The position numbers and the translations under genes are program-made. A model generated the notes under the pieces. That model searched no databases. It was not told the origin of the DNA and saw only the letters and a program-made list of their open reading frames with translations. Positions 182 to 41,569 of a stretch of 64,000 nucleotides of DNA are shown here, in pieces. The stretch comes from Bacillota bacterium (lineage in GTDB: Bacteria > Bacillota > Sulfobacillia > JAJZYS01 > JAJZLH01): the NCBI GenBank assembly GCA_021850485.1, contig JAJZLY010000008.1, positions 62,001-126,000 on the forward strand. Direction: 5' to 3'. The stretch's first letter is position 1. Every line of letters starts with the position of its first letter.

Positions 182-1999
182 CTGAGCCTGCGTCGCCTGC
201 TGCTGGGCCGCCCGCTTCGCACGGATGAGTCTGGCGCCCAGCGGATTGGCGTCATCGGCGCTTTGCCGTTGCTCTGTCCGGACGCTCTTTCGTCCGTCGC
301 CTATGGTACGCAGGCCATTCTGGTCGTGTTGGCCTCGGCCGGCACCCTGGCACTTTGGTACTCGCTGCCAATCTCCGCCATGATCGTGCTGCTGCTGACC
401 GTGCTGGTGATCAGTTACCGCCAGGTGATCACCGCCTACCCCGGTGGCGGTGGCGCCTACGTGGTCGGCCGCGAGACTCTGGGTCCGGTGGCCAGCCTGG
501 TGGCTGGCGCCTCGCTGCTGATCGACTACACGCTGAACATCGCGGTCAGCGCCGCTGCTGGTGTCGCCGCCGTGATCGCTGCCCTGCCGGCTCTGCTGGC
601 CTGGCGGGTAGAGCTGTGCGTCCTGGTGGTGGTTCTGATGACAGCCGTCAATTTGCGCGGTACGCGCGAGTCCTCGCTCACCTTCGGACCGCCCACCTAC
701 CTCTTCATTGCGATGGTGCTGATCATGATCGCCGTGGCGTTCTTCCAGGGCAAAATGTTCGCCCATCCAGCCCACGCCCTGCTGCCCGCTCCCGTGGTGC
801 CCGGGCTGGCGTTGTTCGTCGTGCTGCGTGCCTTCAGTTCCGGATCGACCGCCCTGACCGGCATCGAGGCCATCTCCAACGGCGTGCCGTTGTTTAAACC
901 AGACTCCGTGATCCGGGCCCGCACCACCATGGTGGTGCTGGGATTGCTCCTGGGCGTGATGTTCCTCGGCACGTCCTTGGCTGCTTTCTCCTATGGCATC
1001 GTGCCAAACGCCCAGAGCACGGTGCTGCAGCAGCTGGCGGCCGCCATCTTCGGCCAAGGCGTGTTCTTCTATCTGCTGGCCTTCGTCACCATGGGCATTT
1101 TGATGGTCTCCGCCAACACCAGTTTCGCCGGCTTCCCGCAACTGGCGAGTCTGATGGCCCGCGACGGCTGGATGCCCCGCATGTTCGCAAGCCGCGGCGA
1201 CCGACTGGTCTATCAAAATGGCATCTTGGTGATTGGCCTGGCCGCAGCTCTGTTGCTGCTCATCTTTCAGGGCAGCGTGATCCGGCTGATCCCGCTGTTC
1301 GCCATCGGCGTCTACATCGGCTTCACCATCACCCAAGTTGGGCTGATCAAGAAGAATCTGTCAGAACGCAGTGGCAAGTGGCTGGTGATGGTGGCCATGG
1401 CCGGCGGTGCTCTGCTCACAGCCACCGTGGTGGTGGTCGCCCTGGCAACCAAGTTCCTGGAAGGCGCTTGGATCGTCGCCCTGATCTTGCCCCTGATGGT
1501 GATCGCCTTCTTGCGCATCCAGCGCCACTACAAGGCCATGAGCCAGGAACTGCGTCTGCCTGACTCCGAAGTTCGCCCCAGCGGCAAGGCGGTGGTGGCG
1601 GTGGTGCCCTTCAGCGGCATCAGCCGAATCAGCCAGTCCAGCCTCTCCTACGCCCTGTCCATCTCGGCGAATGTGGTGGCGGTTAACGTCTCCTTCACGG
1701 ACCAGGCGGAGGCCGCCATCCGCGACGCATGGCAGGCCTGGGCGCCGGATCCGTCGATCCGCCTGGTGGTGTTACGAAGTCCCTACCGCTCTGTCACCGG
1801 GCCGGTCTTGGCCTATATTGACCGCCTGCAAGAGGAGTTTGGCGAGGGGCATGTCTTGGTCCTGATCCCGGAGTTCGTGGTCGGAAAGTGGTGGCAGTAC
1901 CTGTTGCACAATCAAATCGGCCTGCTGTTGCAGGCCAATTTGGTGTTTCGCAAAGACATCGTCGTGGCCATGGTGCCGTTTCGACTTTCCGGACGCTAG
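182..1999 (+). CDS. KimA-like APC-superfamily permease, probable potassium transporter
   Basis: This is a 605-residue protein with about 12 hydrophobic segments followed by a soluble C-terminal domain from about residue 440. That is the architecture and length of Bacillus KimA (about 607 aa), a c-di-AMP-inhibited proton/potassium symporter. The family N-terminus (RRLLLGRPLRTDE, then PDALSSVAYGTQAIL) is readable only if translation starts upstream of TTG 263. The frame is open there with no ATG, GTG or TTG; CTG 182 follows a GGGAGG at 169-174 with 7-base spacing and is the preferred start. The C-terminal region after residue 450 has the alternating hydrophobic strands of the cytosolic regulatory domain. 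Substrate assignment is by family resemblance only; another APC amino-acid permease remains possible. Confidence 0.75.
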   Translation: MSLRRLLLGRPLRTDESGAQRIGVIGALPLLCPDALSSVAYGTQAILVVLASAGTLALWYSLPISAMIVLLLTVLVISYRQVITAYPGGGGAYVVGRETLGPVASLVAGASLLIDYTLNIAVSAAAGVAAVIAALPALLAWRVELCVLVVVLMTAVNLRGTRESSLTFGPPTYLFIAMVLIMIAVAFFQGKMFAHPAHALLPAPVVPGLALFVVLRAFSSGSTALTGIEAISNGVPLFKPDSVIRARTTMVVLGLLLGVMFLGTSLAAFSYGIVPNAQSTVLQQLAAAIFGQGVFFYLLAFVTMGILMVSANTSFAGFPQLASLMARDGWMPRMFASRGDRLVYQNGILVIGLAAALLLLIFQGSVIRLIPLFAIGVYIGFTITQVGLIKKNLSERSGKWLVMVAMAGGALLTATVVVVALATKFLEGAWIVALILPLMVIAFLRIQRHYKAMSQELRLPDSEVRPSGKAVVAVVPFSGISRISQSSLSYALSISANVVAVNVSFTDQAEAAIRDAWQAWAPDPSIRLVVLRSPYRSVTGPVLAYIDRLQEEFGEGHVLVLIPEFVVGKWWQYLLHNQIGLLLQANLVFRKDIVVAMVPFRLSGR

Positions 2000-13150: not shown

Positions 13151-13211
13151 AACCTGACACTGCGCCCGCTTGGGCCAGCGCCCCAACTTCTCGCAGAAGG
13201 GATCGAGGCAT

Positions 13212-14351
13212 CTGTACGATCTGGTCATCGTTGGGGCCGGGGTCTGGGGCTCGTCGGCAGCGCTCTCTGCGCTGCGCCAGGGCGCCAAGAGTGTGCTGTT
13301 GCTGGAAGCGGACATTGGGGCGGCTCAGCGGACCAGCGCCAAGAGCGGCGGCATTGTCACCGACTTGATCTGGCACCCGCACGACCGCCAGCTGGTGGCG
13401 CGTAGCCGCCTTTTGTTCCAGGAGGCAGCCGAGGGCGCAGGTGATGCCCACTTGTGGCAGGCGGCTGGCATGCTGACCCTGGGCGGTCCGAGACAGGCGG
13501 CACTGTTCTCGGCCCGCCGCGCTGAGCTCAGCGAGCGGTCGATCGCAGTCGCGCTGATGGATCGCACGGGCCTGCAACACCAGTTTCCCGCGCTCGATCG
13601 GCTGGCCGACGACACCATCGCGCTGTACACACCACAAGACTGGCACGTCAATCCCACCGCCTACGCTGTTCAGGCCGTCAGTGCGGCCCGTCGGCTCGGG
13701 CTTGAGGTCCGGATGGCAACGCCGGTCCGCCGCCTCGAAGTGCTGGCGGACTCGGTGACGGTGCACCTGGCCGACCAGGATCCGGTTTCGGCGGCCCGGG
13801 TCCTGGTCTGCGCTGGCACCTGGTCGCGCCAGTTGCTGCGCACGGCCGGGGTCGACATCGCCTTGCGCCCTTATCGCACCCAACTCTCCTCGGTCCGCTT
13901 CGGCCGCCCCCACGATCTACCGATCGTCTGGCACCTGGATACCGATCTGTACCTGGTGCCCGAGGGCGGCCAGGACATGTTGGCTGGCGACGGCACCGAA
14001 TCTGTCGAATCCGACCCCGAGAGCTTCCGCCAAGCTGGGGATGCCGACTTTTTAGCCAGTGTGGCCGAACGGATCGTCGATCTGACCAGCCGCGGTGATG
14101 GAGCCGGAATCCGCACGGCTTGGGCCGGTCTTTGCGGTGCGACGCCGGACCGCCGTCCGCTGCTCGGCCGTCTCGCTCCGCACCTGTATTGCGCCTGCGG
14201 CGATCAGGGCATTGGCGTGATGCGCGGACCGGCGCTCGGTGAGCTGGCGGCCGCCGTGGCCCTGGAGCACACTGAGGTGCCAGAGTTGGATCCATTGCGC
14301 TTTGCGGCAGCTGATTTCCCGATTCGGGGCGGCTTCACCTTAGAGGCATAG
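13212..14351 (+). CDS. FAD-dependent oxidoreductase (DAO / sarcosine oxidase-like)
   Basis: The protein is of about 379 residues. The N-terminal Rossmann fold YDLVIVGAGVWGSSAAL has the GxGxxG dinucleotide motif and ends in an acidic LLLEAD strand; SAKSGGIV is typical of the DAO superfamily, and the C-terminal CGDQGIGVMRGPALG closes the FAD site. Members oxidise secondary amines or D-amino acids such as glycine or sarcosine; the substrate here is not known. TTG 13170 has no ribosome-binding site, while CTG 13212 has AAGGGA 9 bases upstream and gives the natural N-terminus MYDLVIVGAG, so CTG is preferred. Confidence 0.78.
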   Translation: MYDLVIVGAGVWGSSAALSALRQGAKSVLLLEADIGAAQRTSAKSGGIVTDLIWHPHDRQLVARSRLLFQEAAEGAGDAHLWQAAGMLTLGGPRQAALFSARRAELSERSIAVALMDRTGLQHQFPALDRLADDTIALYTPQDWHVNPTAYAVQAVSAARRLGLEVRMATPVRRLEVLADSVTVHLADQDPVSAARVLVCAGTWSRQLLRTAGVDIALRPYRTQLSSVRFGRPHDLPIVWHLDTDLYLVPEGGQDMLAGDGTESVESDPESFRQAGDADFLASVAERIVDLTSRGDGAGIRTAWAGLCGATPDRRPLLGRLAPHLYCACGDQGIGVMRGPALGELAAAVALEHTEVPELDPLRFAAADFPIRGGFTLEA

Positions 14352-14440: not shown

Positions 14441-14481
14441 CATGCCCATACCGCCAGCGCCCCTTGGAGGAGGATTTTCCG

Positions 14482-16908
14482 ATCGACGACACCTATCGCC
14501 CGCAGAGCATCGAGCCGCGCTGGCAAGCGCGCTGGCAGGCTGCGGGCATCGGAGAGGTTGACCTTGGTGGCGCCCGGCGCCCGTACTACAACCTGATGAT
14601 GTTCCCCTACCCTTCAGCGGAGGGACTGCACGTCGGAAACGTCTTCGCCTTCACTGGGGCGGACATCCACGGCAGGCTGCGCACCATGCAAGGCTACGAC
14701 GTGTTTGAACCGATGGGCTTTGACGCCTTTGGCATCCACAGTGAGAACACCGCCATTAAGCAGGGTATCCACCCCAAGAAGCTGGTCGCCGCCAACACCC
14801 GAAACTTCCGCCGCCAGTTGGAGCGGCTGGGCGGCCGCTTCGCCTGGTCGCACACCTTGGACTCGACCGATCCCGCCTACTATCGGTGGACCCAGTGGAT
14901 CTTCCTCAAGCTGTTTCAGGCTGGCCTCGCCTATCGCAAGCAGGCGCCCGTCAACTGGTGTCCGTCTTGTCGGACAGTGCTCGCCGATGAGCAGGTGATC
15001 TCGGGTCACTGCGAGCGGTGCGACAGCATGGTCGAACAGCGCAGTCTGGAACAGTGGTTTTTCCGCATCACCGCCTACGCCGACCGCCTGCTCGACCACC
15101 TGCCCGACATGGACTGGTCCGAGGTGATCAAAACCGCCCAGACCAACTGGATCGGCCGCAGCACCGGGGCCAGCCTGACCTTTGCGGTAGAGGCACCAGC
15201 GGTTGGGCAGATCGAAGTCTTCACCACCAGACCAGATACGCTCTACGGAGCCACCTTCCTCACTCTGGCTCCGAGCCACCCGCTGGCGCTTGCCATTGCC
15301 ACCGCCGACTATCGGCCGGCGGTTTTGGCCTACATCGAGCAGGCGGCCCAGACTCCCTCGGCAGAGGCAGACGGCGAACGGGCCAAGACCGGTGTCAGGA
15401 CCGGTGCCTTCGCCCGCCATCCTTTGACCGGAGAGGCCCTGCCGATCCTGGTCGCAGACTATGTGCTAGGCGGCTACGGCACCGGTGCGGTGATGGGCGT
15501 ACCGGGCCACGATCAGCGCGATTTCGCCTTCGCCCAGGCCATGGGTCTTCCGATCCGGCGGGTGATCTCCCCCTCCGCCGAAGAGGACAGTCCTTTGGCC
15601 GAAGCGTTCACCGCCGAGTCTGGAGTGCTGGTTCATTCCGGCCCCTACAGCGGACTGAGCGTGGCCGAAGGGAAGGCTGCGATCATCGCCCGAGCCGAGC
15701 AAGACGCCTTCGGCACCGCCAAGACCACGTACCATCTCAGGGACTGGCTGATCTCGCGCCAGCGCTACTGGGGCCCGCCCATTCCCATCGTCTACTGCGA
15801 TCACTGCGGCGCGGTCGGCGTAGCAGAATCGGATCTGCCTGTCTTGCTGCCTGAAACCGACGACTACGTTCCGCAGGGTACGGGCGCTTCGCCGCTGGCC
15901 TCGATCCCGGCCTTTGTGAACACCAGCTGCCCGCGTTGCCAGGGACCCGCCCGGCGGGAGACCGACGTGTCAGACAACTTCTTGTGCTCGTCTTGGTACT
16001 TCTTGCGCTACCCGTCTCACCCGGACGTCACCGATCGGCCCTACGACCAAACCCTGATCGACAAGTGGCTGCCCGTGGACAGCTACATCGGCGGCAAAGA
16101 GCACGCTGTCTTGCACCTGCTTTATACCCGCTTCATCTGCATGGCCCTATCCGACCTCGGTCTGCTTCCCTTTGAGGAGCCGTTTTTGCGCTTTCGCGCC
16201 CATGGCACGATCACGTTTCAAGGCGGCAAGATGTCCAAGTCCCGAGGCAACGTGGTCACGCCGGACGACCTGTTCGATCGCTACGGCGCCGACACGACCC
16301 GTCTGTACCTGATGTTCCTCGGCCCCTACCAGGAAGGCGGCGACTACTCCGAGCGCAACATCGAGGGCATCTGGCGCTTTTTGCAGCGCGTCCACCGCCT
16401 GGTTGCGCAGAGCACCAACGGGCCCCGGGCCTGCGCCGCTCCCCATCTGGCGGACCTGCACCGGGTGGTGAAGCGGGTGACAGAAGACTTGGAGACCCTG
16501 AAGTACAACACCGCGATCGCTGCCTTGATGGAGTACAACAACCTGCTCAGGCAGCGAGAGGATGCAATCTCGCATCAGGAGCTGGCCACCTTCACCCTGC
16601 TGCTGGCACCCTTGGCGCCGCATCTGGCCGAAGAGCTGTGGCAAGCCCTGGGCGGCGCCTTCTCCGTGCACGAGCAGCCATTTCCGACCTACGATCCGGC
16701 ACAGCTGGTGGAAGCTACCGCCACAATTGTGGTGCAGGTGGACGGGCGGGTGCGGGAGCGCTTGACCGTGCCAGCCGGCACCTCTCAGGCCGAGGTGCGC
16801 CGGCAGGCGCTGGAGCTGGAGGCGGTGCAGCGCCATCTGGCCGACGCCGAGGTGGCGCGCGTGGTGTTCGTACCGGATCGGCTGTTGAACATCGTGCGGG
16901 AGGACTGA
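14482..16908 (+). CDS. leuS: leucyl-tRNA synthetase
   Basis: This class I synthetase of about 808 residues charges tRNA-Leu. The HIGH-type motif is HVGN (50-53) in YPSAEGLHVGNV; KMSKS is at 583-587. The CP1 editing domain contains TTRPDTLYG and GTGAVMGVPGHD, and zinc-binding Cys pairs appear in the CPSC...CERC insertion and in CPRC. Start: the only standard start is TTG 14464, but it overlaps the strong SD GGAGGAGG (14466-14473) and has none of its own. ATC 14482 lies 8 bases after that SD and yields DDTYRPQSIEPRWQ, the usual family beginning. The chosen ATC start is inferred; 14464 is the fallback. Confidence 0.9.
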   Translation: MDDTYRPQSIEPRWQARWQAAGIGEVDLGGARRPYYNLMMFPYPSAEGLHVGNVFAFTGADIHGRLRTMQGYDVFEPMGFDAFGIHSENTAIKQGIHPKKLVAANTRNFRRQLERLGGRFAWSHTLDSTDPAYYRWTQWIFLKLFQAGLAYRKQAPVNWCPSCRTVLADEQVISGHCERCDSMVEQRSLEQWFFRITAYADRLLDHLPDMDWSEVIKTAQTNWIGRSTGASLTFAVEAPAVGQIEVFTTRPDTLYGATFLTLAPSHPLALAIATADYRPAVLAYIEQAAQTPSAEADGERAKTGVRTGAFARHPLTGEALPILVADYVLGGYGTGAVMGVPGHDQRDFAFAQAMGLPIRRVISPSAEEDSPLAEAFTAESGVLVHSGPYSGLSVAEGKAAIIARAEQDAFGTAKTTYHLRDWLISRQRYWGPPIPIVYCDHCGAVGVAESDLPVLLPETDDYVPQGTGASPLASIPAFVNTSCPRCQGPARRETDVSDNFLCSSWYFLRYPSHPDVTDRPYDQTLIDKWLPVDSYIGGKEHAVLHLLYTRFICMALSDLGLLPFEEPFLRFRAHGTITFQGGKMSKSRGNVVTPDDLFDRYGADTTRLYLMFLGPYQEGGDYSERNIEGIWRFLQRVHRLVAQSTNGPRACAAPHLADLHRVVKRVTEDLETLKYNTAIAALMEYNNLLRQREDAISHQELATFTLLLAPLAPHLAEELWQALGGAFSVHEQPFPTYDPAQLVEATATIVVQVDGRVRERLTVPAGTSQAEVRRQALELEAVQRHLADAEVARVVFVPDRLLNIVRED

Positions 16909-24141: not shown

Positions 24142-25065
24142 TTACCTGTTCTCGTCCTCCGGCTCCAGCCCTGCCGCCTGAATCAGTCTGGCCAGGCGGG
24201 CGGCGGCAGCGGACTTGGTGATGTGCAGCGCATGGCCCAGCTCCGACAATGTCGCCTCAGGATCGGCCAGCCGGGCTGCTGCAGCGTCGCGGACGGCTGC
24301 CCCAAATCGATCCAGACGGCCCTCAATCTGCAGGGTTTGAATCGCCAACAGCTGGCGGGAGGCGGCTCGGGCCGACCTTTGCAAATTGGCCGTCTCGGCG
24401 TTGACTAGGCGGTTGACATGATCCTTCAGCTCAGAGATGGCCCACACGTCTTCGAAAGCGAACAGGGCCCCCTTGCCGCCGACGGCCGCCAGAAGAGCCG
24501 TCACCTGACGCCGGCTCTTCAGATAGACCAAAAAACGGCCGCGGCGCTCCGTCCGACGGGCGTCAATCCCCAAGGAGCCAAGTAGGTCTGCAGTCTCCAG
24601 GGCGAGCTGCGGCTGGGCGTAGACAAATTCCAGATGCGGCTCCTTGTGTGGGTCGTTGATCGAGCCACATGCCAGCAGGTAGCCGCGCAGCAGTGCCCCC
24701 CGTCTGGCTGAGGTGGCAGTGAGCTGCCTGGGCAGCGGCAGCAGGTCCAGGCCCAGCCCCAACATGCCCAGCCACGGCGCAGCCGCGCCCAGGTCGGGCA
24801 GATGGAGGGCGAACCGGCCGTGACGGCGGTTGGCTCGGCGCAACAGGTCCGGCTTAGGCACGCCCTCTTGGCGCAACAGGTGTACGGCCAGTCTGGCCAC
24901 TGCCGGGTGATCGAAGCCGGTCAGCAAAATGGCGCCGCCGGCGCCTTCTTTGACCATGCTCCCCGGTCGTAGCAATCCGGCCAGCAGCGCCCTGCGCACG
25001 ACGGCCCTGTGTGGTTTGATCTGGGCCAACTCGGCCTTCAGGCGTCTTGTGAATGAATCTGCCAC
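24142..25065 (-). CDS. whiA: DNA-binding protein WhiA
   Basis: The 307-residue protein has the two domains of WhiA: a LAGLIDADG-like N-terminal part (about 1-195) and a C-terminal helix-turn-helix (TLSELGHALHITKSAAAARLARL). It starts at GTG 25065, 28 bases inside the end of yvcK. In Bacillus, WhiA affects cell division and wall metabolism and works with the yvcK-rapZ cluster genes. No catalytic LAGLIDADG residues are expected. Confidence 0.9.
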   Translation of the reverse strand: MADSFTRRLKAELAQIKPHRAVVRRALLAGLLRPGSMVKEGAGGAILLTGFDHPAVARLAVHLLRQEGVPKPDLLRRANRRHGRFALHLPDLGAAAPWLGMLGLGLDLLPLPRQLTATSARRGALLRGYLLACGSINDPHKEPHLEFVYAQPQLALETADLLGSLGIDARRTERRGRFLVYLKSRRQVTALLAAVGGKGALFAFEDVWAISELKDHVNRLVNAETANLQRSARAASRQLLAIQTLQIEGRLDRFGAAVRDAAAARLADPEATLSELGHALHITKSAAAARLARLIQAAGLEPEDENR

Positions 25066-26378
25066 GGCCCTGCCTCAGCGCGCCGCAATCGCTCTGCCAG
25101 CGCCAAAAAGTCCATCCGCCGGCGCGGCTCCCAGGCGTCAGAGGCATCGAGCACGATCTCCAGCACCGCCCTGGCCAGCTTCCCGGAGTCGTGCCGGACC
25201 AGGACTCCCGGTGCCAGCAGATCCCGCCGCCGCACCCGTTTTCCGCTCTCGATCAAGCCAGCCGCATCGGTTTTTACCGGCAGCGCGCCCACCCCGGCGT
25301 AGCGAGCGAGCAGCGCCGGGTCGATGTCACCTTCGTGCACCACCACCCACTCCACCGTCCCGGGGGCGTGGCGCTCGATCGCCGCCAGGTGCTCCTTCAG
25401 TCCCATGCCACTGGTTTCGCCCGGCTGCGTCATCAGGTTCTGGACATAGATTTTGGCAGCACGGGTGGTGGCGATAGCCTTAGCCACACCGGGCGCCAAT
25501 AGCACGGGCAGAATGCTGGTCCACAGGCTGCCCGGTGCGATCACGACCGCCTCCGCCGACATGATCGCTTCCACCACCGCCGGGTCGACCTGGGGCTGAG
25601 CTGGCTCCAAGCGGACGTCTTGGATGGTGTGCCCGTGGCCGGTGATCTCGGATTCTCCCTGGATCCACTGCCCGTCGTCCGTCTTGGCCCACAGCACCAC
25701 TGGCTCGGCGGTGGCCATCAGCACCCGGCCCTGCACGGCCAGTACCCGGCTGGAAGCCGTGATCGCGGTTTGAAAATCCCCCGTGGTGCGCTCCATGGCG
25801 GTCAGAAAGAGGTTGCCGAAGGCATGGCCGGCCAGGTCTCCGCCCTCCTCAAAGCGGTATTGAAACAATCGCTCCAGCAATGGCTCCGCCTCTGACAGGG
25901 CAACCAGGCAATTGCGCACATCACCCGGTGGCTGGATGTTAAAGCCAGCCCGCAGCCGGCCCGTGGATCCGCCGTCGTCGGCTGAGGTAACAATGGCGGT
26001 GAGATGGGCCGTGTACGACTTGAGGCCTCTGAGCAACACCGGCATGCCGGTGCCGCCGCCCAGAACGACGATCTTCGGCCCCCGGCGCAGGGCGTGGCCT
26101 GTGACCACAGCCGCCGCCAACTCATCGGGGGCGTTGGGTGCCACCACCGCCACCACCGAGCGGATCAGTCCGCGCACGCCGACCACGCCGAGCCCGACGC
26201 CCCAGGCCAAAACGACAACATCGAAGATCGGCCCCAGGCCGAAGTGAACGTTCGGTGCCGTGGCTGGGATGAGCGGTGCCAAGCCCAGCAAGGCCACCAC
26301 AAAGCCAAGCGCCATCAGCGCCACCCAGCGTTTGAGGCGAAGTCCGGGAACGAGCCAGGAGGTTAAGTCTCGGACGAT
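25038..26378 (-). CDS. yvcK: gluconeogenesis factor YvcK (CofD/UPF0052 family)
   Basis: The core (VVLGGGTGMPVLLRGLK and SADDGGSTGRLR) identifies the UPF0052/CofD-like family, which binds UDP-sugars and affects wall synthesis during gluconeogenic growth. The protein has two N-terminal membrane helices before the core, a form seen in clostridial homologues. Start: GTG 26324 gives 428 residues, but the in-frame region before it reads SWLVPGLRLKRW, the usual start of such proteins. No ATG, GTG, TTG or CTG exists upstream of it; ATC 26378 follows AAAGGAGGAG (26381-26390) with 4-base spacing. The N-terminus overlaps the end of rapZ. Confidence 0.88.
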   Translation of the reverse strand: MVRDLTSWLVPGLRLKRWVALMALGFVVALLGLAPLIPATAPNVHFGLGPIFDVVVLAWGVGLGVVGVRGLIRSVVAVVAPNAPDELAAAVVTGHALRRGPKIVVLGGGTGMPVLLRGLKSYTAHLTAIVTSADDGGSTGRLRAGFNIQPPGDVRNCLVALSEAEPLLERLFQYRFEEGGDLAGHAFGNLFLTAMERTTGDFQTAITASSRVLAVQGRVLMATAEPVVLWAKTDDGQWIQGESEITGHGHTIQDVRLEPAQPQVDPAVVEAIMSAEAVVIAPGSLWTSILPVLLAPGVAKAIATTRAAKIYVQNLMTQPGETSGMGLKEHLAAIERHAPGTVEWVVVHEGDIDPALLARYAGVGALPVKTDAAGLIESGKRVRRRDLLAPGVLVRHDSGKLARAVLEIVLDASDAWEPRRRMDFLALAERLRRAEAGPWQIHSQDA

Positions 26379-27241
26379 GACTCCTCCTTTTCCAGGTCCC
26401 GGTGGCTAACCGTTACCGGGCTATAGTCGGAGCTCAGCCGCGAGGCTAGGTGCTCGACCACGGCGACTGACCGGTGATGGCCACCGGTGCAGCCGATGGC
26501 CACGGTGAAGTCGCTGCGCGCATCGTCCTCCAGGTGGCCAAGGTAGTCGCGGATCAGGGCCTCCATCCGACCGACCAGTCGCCGGGCGCTTTGATCGTGG
26601 AGCACGAAAGCCATCACCCGGGCATCTGTGCCGGGCAGTGGCGCCAGATCGGGGTGGTAGTGCGGGTTGGGCAGACTGCGCACGTCCAGCACCAGGTCAG
26701 CCTCGGCCGGGGCACCGTGCTTGAAGCCAAAGCTGACGAGCCGCAGGGGCGGATGGCCAGAGGCGTCCGCAGCATAGGCTTGGGTCAAGGTCCGGCGCAG
26801 GCGGTAGAGGGTGAGGTTGGAGGTATCGAGGATCAAGGTGGCCTGCTGGCGCACCGGCTCCAGCAGGGTGCGCTCCAGGGCGATGCCCTCGGCCACCGAG
26901 CCCTGGGGTGCCATCGGGTGGCGGCGCCTCGTTTCTTTGTAGCGCCGAATCAAGGTGGCGTCATCGGCCTCCAGGTACAGCACGGCGTAGGTGACGTCCA
27001 CCTCGGCCAACACCCGCAGCGCCTCCTGGATGCCACCAAAGAAGCCCTCTTGCCGGCAGTCCACCACCAGCGCTGTGCCGCGCAACCCAGGCTCGGTCCC
27101 GAGCAGTTCAACCAGACGCGGGATCAGCGCCGGTGGGATGTTGTCCACGGCGAAAAACCCCAGGTCTTCAAAGATGTGCAGCGCATTCGTCTTGCCCGCC
27201 CCGGACAGGCCGGTAACCAGCACCACCAAGCTCTTGGTCAC
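26363..27241 (-). CDS. rapZ: RNase adapter protein RapZ / nucleotide-binding YvcJ
   Basis: The 292-residue protein has an N-terminal P-loop domain with Walker A GLSGAGKT at 11-18 and a C-terminal domain that contains IGCTGGHHRS. In E. coli RapZ senses glucosamine-6-phosphate and recruits RNase E to GlmZ; in Bacillus the homologue YvcJ has nucleotide-binding activity and belongs to the rapZ-yvcK-whiA cluster. Its last codons also supply the yvcK ribosome-binding site. GTG start at 27241. Confidence 0.92.
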   Translation of the reverse strand: MTKSLVVLVTGLSGAGKTNALHIFEDLGFFAVDNIPPALIPRLVELLGTEPGLRGTALVVDCRQEGFFGGIQEALRVLAEVDVTYAVLYLEADDATLIRRYKETRRRHPMAPQGSVAEGIALERTLLEPVRQQATLILDTSNLTLYRLRRTLTQAYAADASGHPPLRLVSFGFKHGAPAEADLVLDVRSLPNPHYHPDLAPLPGTDARVMAFVLHDQSARRLVGRMEALIRDYLGHLEDDARSDFTVAIGCTGGHHRSVAVVEHLASRLSSDYSPVTVSHRDLEKEESSSET

Positions 27242-40443: not shown

Positions 40444-41569
40444 CTAAGCCTGAGGTGCGGAGTCGAGCTCGGAGGCCGACAGGCGCTTGGCCTCAAATTC
40501 TAGATAGGCCCGGATGAACGGGGAGAGTTCACCGTCCATCACGGCCTGGACATCTCCGGTCTCGTGCCCGGTGCGGTGGTCTTTGACCATGGTAAACGGC
40601 TGGAAAACGTAGGACCGAATTTGGCTCCCCCAGCTGATGTCTTGCTGGATGCCGCGCAGCTGAGCCATCTCGTGCTGCTGATCCAGTTCCTTCTTCTCCA
40701 GTAGTTTGGCCCTCAGGATCCGCATCGCCGTCTCCCGGTTGGCATGTTGCGAACGCTCGTTCTGGCAGCTGACCACGATGCCGGTGGCCAAGTGGGTGAT
40801 GCGCACCGCCGACTCGGTTTTGTTCACGTGCTGGCCGCCGGCACCGCTGGAGCGGTAGGTGTCGATGCGCAATTCTTCCGGTGTCAGCGGCACCTCGTCC
40901 TCGCTCTCGATCACCGGCAGCACGTCCAGTGAGGCGAACGAGGTGTGCCTGCGGCCGCTGGAGTCAAAGGGCGACATCCTGACCAGGCGGTGTACTCCGC
41001 GCTCTGCTTTCAAAAACCCATATCCCATGTGACCGGAGATCTGGAAGGTGACGCCTTTGACGCCGGCTTCCTCGCCGGGCAAAAAGTCCAATACCTCCAC
41101 CTGATACCCCTGGCGTTCGCAAAAGCGTGTGTACATGCGGTAGAGCATCTGCGCCCAGTCCATGGCATCCACGCCGCCGGCGCCGCCATGGATGGACAAG
41201 ATGGCGTCGTGAGAGTCGTAGGGGCCAGACAGCAGGACGGACAGGTCGAGCCGCTCCATGCGCTGCTCAAGCTCGCCGATCAAGTTTGTCGCCTCTTGTG
41301 CCACGTCCGCATCGGCCGTCTCTTCGGCCAGCTCCAAGAGCACGCCCACGTCCTCGGCGGAATGCTCTAGGGCAGCCAGTTCCTCGATCGGTGTCTTCAG
41401 CCGGCGCAGGGCGTGCACGGCCTCCTGAGCAGCCTTGCCATCTGCCCACACCGAGGGGTCCTCGAGCTTCTTTTCCCAGGCGTCGATCGCCGCCTTGCGC
41501 GCATCGGGGTCAAAGAGACCTCCGCAGTCGTTCTAGGCGGGCCAGGAGCTGACGCAGGCGATCTTCCAT
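40444..41569 (-). CDS. prfB: peptide chain release factor 2, with programmed +1 frameshift
   Basis: RF2 recognises UAA and UGA. The zero-frame ORF starts at ATG 41569 (MEDRLRQLLARLERLRRSL) and stops at an in-frame TGA at 41510-41512. A +1 shift at CTT TGA C continues in the downstream frame as LDPDARKAAIDAW and yields 374 residues. The ribosomal-hydrolysis GGQ motif (SGAGGQHVNKT) is intact. The release-factor gene lies 26 bases downstream of secA. The annotated 335-residue reading from 41451 is only the part after the shift. Confidence 0.95.
41509..41520 (-). promoter_or_regulatory. prfB programmed frameshift site
   Basis: On the minus strand the sequence reads AGG TCT CTT TGA C. The slippery CTT and UGA C context is the classic RF2 autoregulatory site, and the upstream CGGAGG resembles the internal Shine-Dalgarno stimulator. 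When RF2 is scarce, ribosomes pause at UGA and shift +1 to finish the protein. Confidence 0.92.

Follow-up and report, generated by a model that had tools for sequence, protein, structure and literature searches.

Probable AUC initiation of yvcK translation and other candidate non-canonical start codons in a genus of Bacillota

The rapZ-yvcK junction

The window analyzed here is the whole stretch of 64,000 nucleotides from a Bacillota genome (G000) of an uncultured genus, which we compared with two further species of the same genus (G001 and G002); these three species, all of this one genus, make up the family. All three genomes are draft assemblies, with contig numbers from 33 to 80, and both deposited congeners are MAGs; G001 and G002 were also found as Bacillota MAG contigs JAJZLH010000057 and JAKAUI010000045. 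YvcK of G001 and G002 is 84% and 87% identical, respectively, to that of G000. The features of the locus are as follows.

26363–27241, minus strand: rapZ (NF003828, 322 bits), whose last codons contain the Shine-Dalgarno (SD) sequence and overlap the yvcK start
26383–26390, minus strand: SD sequence AAAGGAGG, 4 nt before the ATC and 7 nt before the GTC listed below
26376–26378, minus strand: ATC, candidate yvcK start (ATT in G002, ATC in G001)
26373–26375, minus strand: GTC, rival yvcK start
26322–26324, minus strand: GTG, first canonical codon of the yvcK frame
25038–26378, minus strand: yvcK coding sequence if begun at the ATC (446 aa; TIGR01826, PF01933)
24142–25065, minus strand: putative whiA, 3' of yvcK, assigned by position and sequence

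The yvcK product scores 347 bits against the YvcK/GlmR family model TIGR01826 (cut-off 196) and consists of two N-terminal membrane helices, recognized by inspection, followed by the CofD/YvcK domain. From the TAG at 26408–26406, its frame reads CCA CCG GGA CCT GGA AAA GGA GGA GTC ATC GTC CGA GAC TTA ACC TCC TGG CTC GTT CCC GGA CTT CGC CTC AAA CGC TGG GTG. This codon-by-codon reading agrees with the first-pass annotation, made from the sequence alone, according to which the frame of G000 holds no ATG, GTG, TTG or CTG between this stop and GTG 26324. No canonical start was found near the conserved N-terminal peptide of yvcK in G001 or G002 either. Between the in-frame stop and the conserved WLVPGL, only the ATC at 26378 is a single-base variant of ATG. 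It had been placed 4 bases past an SD sequence within the end of rapZ, and the last G of AAAGGAGG indeed lies 4 nt from it. In this genus, the rapZ stop is located 13 nt downstream of the ATC.

Coding constraint and the choice of the yvcK start codon

The peptide VRDLTSWLVPGLRLKRW (VRDL to KRW), encoded ahead of the first canonical codon, is identical in all three species. Its codons show eight synonymous and no non-synonymous changes in each sister species relative to G000. In 60,000 simulations with as many randomly placed changes, a purely synonymous outcome never arose for G002 and arose about once for G001. Twelve of the codons lie past the rapZ stop, and therefore the synonymous-only pattern is not explained by rapZ. 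Further, the differences between G000 and G002 before the SD sequence are synonymous in rapZ (CGG/CGC, GAA/GAG), whereas those just after it alter rapZ (SS to LL) but leave the yvcK-encoded residues unchanged; thus, the coding constraint switches at the SD sequence. Judged by these substitutions, the segment from about the ATC onward is under protein constraint in the yvcK frame in the three species. Additionally, a PGLxxKRW motif was found in YvcK of relatives across the class. The first-pass annotation had named homologues without an SWLVPGL-like segment as a finding that would speak against upstream initiation; in our alignment, the homologues do carry the segment.

Several observations point to the ATC as the start codon. 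The codon at 26378 is ATC in G000, ATT in G002 and ATC in G001, and all three have the AAGGAGG of the yvcK SD sequence. In a family of the same order (f4; loci L005, L008–L010, L012 and L013, also L004), the start of yvcK is a GTG placed seven codons ahead of the WLxPGL Trp, and this GTG overlaps the rapZ stop (GTGA). The ATC stands at the same distance from the conserved Trp, in the position of the f4 GTG start; in other classmates, yvcK has an ATG start nearer the Trp than in f4. By itself, conservation of an ATH codon over three congeners of about 85% identity cannot show whether the ATC is a start or simply a conserved codon for Ile. Taken with the f4 alignment and the parallel case of leuS (see below), the ATC/ATT/ATC pattern nevertheless bears out the earlier proposal that AUC initiation is the simplest explanation. 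We therefore propose, with a probability of about 0.78 and on the grounds of comparative sequence evidence, that yvcK translation starts at the AUC at 26378–26376, directed by AAAGGAGG within the 3' end of rapZ.

The main rival is the directly following codon, GUC 26375–26373, which was overlooked in the earlier annotation and which would give YvcK the N-terminus fMet-RDLTSWLVPGLR. It has to be taken seriously because of its SD spacing. Among 113 genes of the genus whose canonical start is shared and whose SD sequence is matched, the most frequent spacing is 7 nt (31 genes), exactly that of the GUC, while the 4-nt gap between the strong SD sequence AAAGGAGG and the ATC is rare (2 of 113). The codon is also GTC in all three species, and a GTC start that is repressed by IF3 has been described for Streptomyces sigR (PMC5472188). 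However, GUC has two mismatches to AUG, and the authors of the sigR study describe theirs as the first documented GTC start (PMC5472188). The f4 GTG is matched in position by the ATC and not by the GTC, and leuS of this genus has ATC and offers no GTC as an alternative. We favor the ATC for three reasons: it has a single mismatch, it aligns with the f4 GTG, and ATC is used elsewhere in the genus. Initiation at the GUC is considered unlikely.

Still less probable is a start without the upstream segment, at GTG 26324 or at ATG 26315. The ATG is present in all three species and mechanical gene finders would pick the GTG, but the latter is GTT in G002 and was rejected on this basis. Neither codon accounts for the class-wide PGLxxKRW motif, nor for the purely synonymous change of the codons upstream of the GTG, including the twelve outside the rapZ overlap. 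A -1 frameshift close to the 3' end of rapZ, yielding a RapZ-YvcK fusion with no need for a yvcK start, had been named as the alternative to AUC initiation. The yvcK frame is indeed -1 relative to rapZ and overlaps its end, where G000 has GAAAAG. This would-be slip site reads GAAAAG, GAGAAG and GGGAAG in the three species, with no conserved slippery heptamer, and frameshifting is very improbable because the site is not conserved. The SD sequence conserved directly upstream of the ATC, the separate GTG or ATG starts of yvcK in relatives, and the switch from rapZ-synonymous to yvcK-synonymous changes between G000 and G002 also speak against a fusion. Finally, an assembly or sequencing error could conceal a canonical start, given the draft state of the genomes and the MAG origin of the deposited congeners. 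Three separate genomes agree, however; in one of them this codon carries another third base (ATT). We regard such an error as negligibly probable.

Comparison with known non-canonical starts

AUH starts are known but rare, and they usually hold gene output low. Binns and Masters (2002) reportedly found that the AUU start of Escherichia coli pcnB limits its expression; pcnB shares an AUH start with yvcK but is a different gene in a different lineage. The infC start codon differs among bacteria: E. coli has ATT, Streptomyces has ATC (PMC5472188) and Staphylococcus aureus has AUA (PMC13009471). As proposed for yvcK, infC carries an AUH start after an SD sequence. However, infC is autoregulated by its own product, whereas YvcK is no translation factor, and therefore control by IF3 would act in trans. 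Ribosome profiling of S. aureus yielded four non-canonical start sites; in poor medium, reporters of ccpN (AUA), cvfC1 (AUU) and citZ (AUA) were expressed at about 10% of the AUG level (PMC13009471). These three genes resemble yvcK in combining non-canonical starts with strong SD sequences in low-to-mid-GC Gram-positives. They are other genes, though, with starts proven by ribosome profiling and reporters, while the yvcK start is deduced from sequence; SD spacing is longer in S. aureus than in E. coli but short in yvcK. Streptomyces sigR is, like yvcK, a regulator gene in an operon with a non-canonical start, although that start is GTC and not ATC. A reconstruction over 36 genome triplets recovered no more than two changes to an AUU start (PMC5622118).

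By the proposed mechanism, the usual fMet initiator tRNA would presumably decode the AUC despite a mismatch at its third position. The first residue of YvcK would then be fMet and the N-terminus fMet-VRDLTSWLVPGLR. Because infC, pcnB, ccpN and sigR behave in this way, we infer that the AUC may lower YvcK output relative to the operon neighbors and render it sensitive to IF3 levels. The strong SD sequence and the overlap with rapZ could partly offset the weak start through translational coupling. IF3 is present in the genus with an ordinary sequence, in which inspection revealed no obvious peculiarity. A tRNA scan of the contigs surveyed listed no tRNA-Met.

Our literature search found no paper on an AUH start for yvcK, which is not proof of absence. 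AUH starts are known from infC, pcnB and ccpN, and yvcK would add another gene. The conserved AUC suggests that initiation keeps the dosage of a regulator of cell-wall carbon flux low or links it to IF3. Annotation pipelines accept only ATG, GTG and TTG, and thus YvcK would be annotated without its PGLxxKRW anchor motif.

leuS and other start codons in the genus

A second gene of the window, leuS, probably begins at AUC as well, independently of yvcK, as indicated by the following features and alignments.

14466–14473, plus strand: leuS SD sequence GGAGGAGG, 8 nt before the ATC
14482–14484, plus strand: ATC, probable leuS start (ATC in G002, GTG in G001, ATG or GTG in f4)
14482–16908, plus strand: leuS coding sequence (TIGR00396, 898 bits, profile position 1 at residue 5)

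The GTG of G001 stands at the same codon as the ATC of G000 and G002. The first in-frame ATG is found at MMFPYPS; an in-frame TTG overlaps the SD sequence and is absent in G002. Pipelines restricted to the three canonical codons would therefore misplace the LeuS start, either truncating the protein at the MMFPYPS ATG or choosing this TTG. In an oxidoreductase-like gene (window 13158–14348, plus strand), a CTG of G000 aligns with a GTG of G002 just before YDLVIVGAGVWG.

The survey, which extended over part of the genome, set about 1.13 Mb from G000 beside 0.87 Mb from G002. Among 513 well-supported orthologous frames, 417 had an aligned ATG, GTG or TTG near the onset of coding conservation; leuS was among the frames lacking one. 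At SD-preceded boundaries without a canonical start, AUH codons occurred in 2 of 30, compared with 0 to 7 per cent in the remaining codon classes. These numbers are too small for significance; the case for AUH starts rests on gene-by-gene alignments.

Another of the frames lacking an aligned canonical start resembles a type IV secretion coupling protein (T4SS-coupling-like; L099:14505–16040, minus strand, L248 and L249; C2 about 134.5–136 kb; weak match to PF02534). It has an ATT start in G000 and G002, where G001 has ACG or, two codons earlier, GTG. The start is overlapped by ATGCATTAA or TTGCATTAA, a two-codon out-of-frame ORF. Together with yvcK and leuS, this makes three genes with probable AUH starts by alignment. 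In gmk (L133:11324–11920, minus strand, L258 and L259), all three species read GTC CTG ATC xxx GGA, and a TGA just upstream in G001 rules out any start earlier than the GTC. From this arrangement, gmk would have to start at CTG or ATC in all three species, an AUH start being possible. Two weak candidates of the survey, an ATA in a transporter and an LCP-like protein, were not accepted as non-canonical starts.

CTG starts were also observed. The infC gene starts with CTG in all three species (L123, at G000:C20 about 42.4 kb; L122 and L124), and in f4 it has an ATC start after GGAGGTGA (L126–L128, L130 and L131). In the window, an amino-acid permease gene has a CTG start at 182–184 (plus strand), with an SD sequence GGAGGTG 7 nt upstream; the codon is conserved in G002, so that both species compared have CTG. 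CTG starts were likewise found in the species compared for a sucC-like gene (A5334) and a GNAT-like gene (A5521), both named from a reading of the sequence.

The AUH rate in the genus looks high, in a survey that is sequence-based, extends over part of the genome and lacks a matched control genus. We tentatively raise the idea, which we hold to be somewhat doubtful, that the genus might have relaxed start choice, with AUC or AUU in yvcK, leuS, the T4SS-coupling-like gene and possibly gmk, and CUG in infC, sucC, the permease and the GNAT-like gene. The rate would then be above that of studied bacteria, and the genes might form an IF3-sensitive set. Of these findings, it is the grouping of non-canonical starts within a single genus that merits attention; if confirmed, the several AUH and CUG starts would offer a natural system for the evolution of start-codon fidelity.

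Two further frames were excluded from the start-codon candidates as expected cases of recoding. prfB (window 40447–41532, minus strand) carries the frameshift site CTTTGAC after GGAGGT, as in other bacteria. A formate-dehydrogenase-like frame (G000:C20 about 87047–88748, minus strand) has a conserved in-frame TGA before HAPSVAGL, which probably encodes selenocysteine; a tRNA-Sec is predicted at C2:2077–2172.
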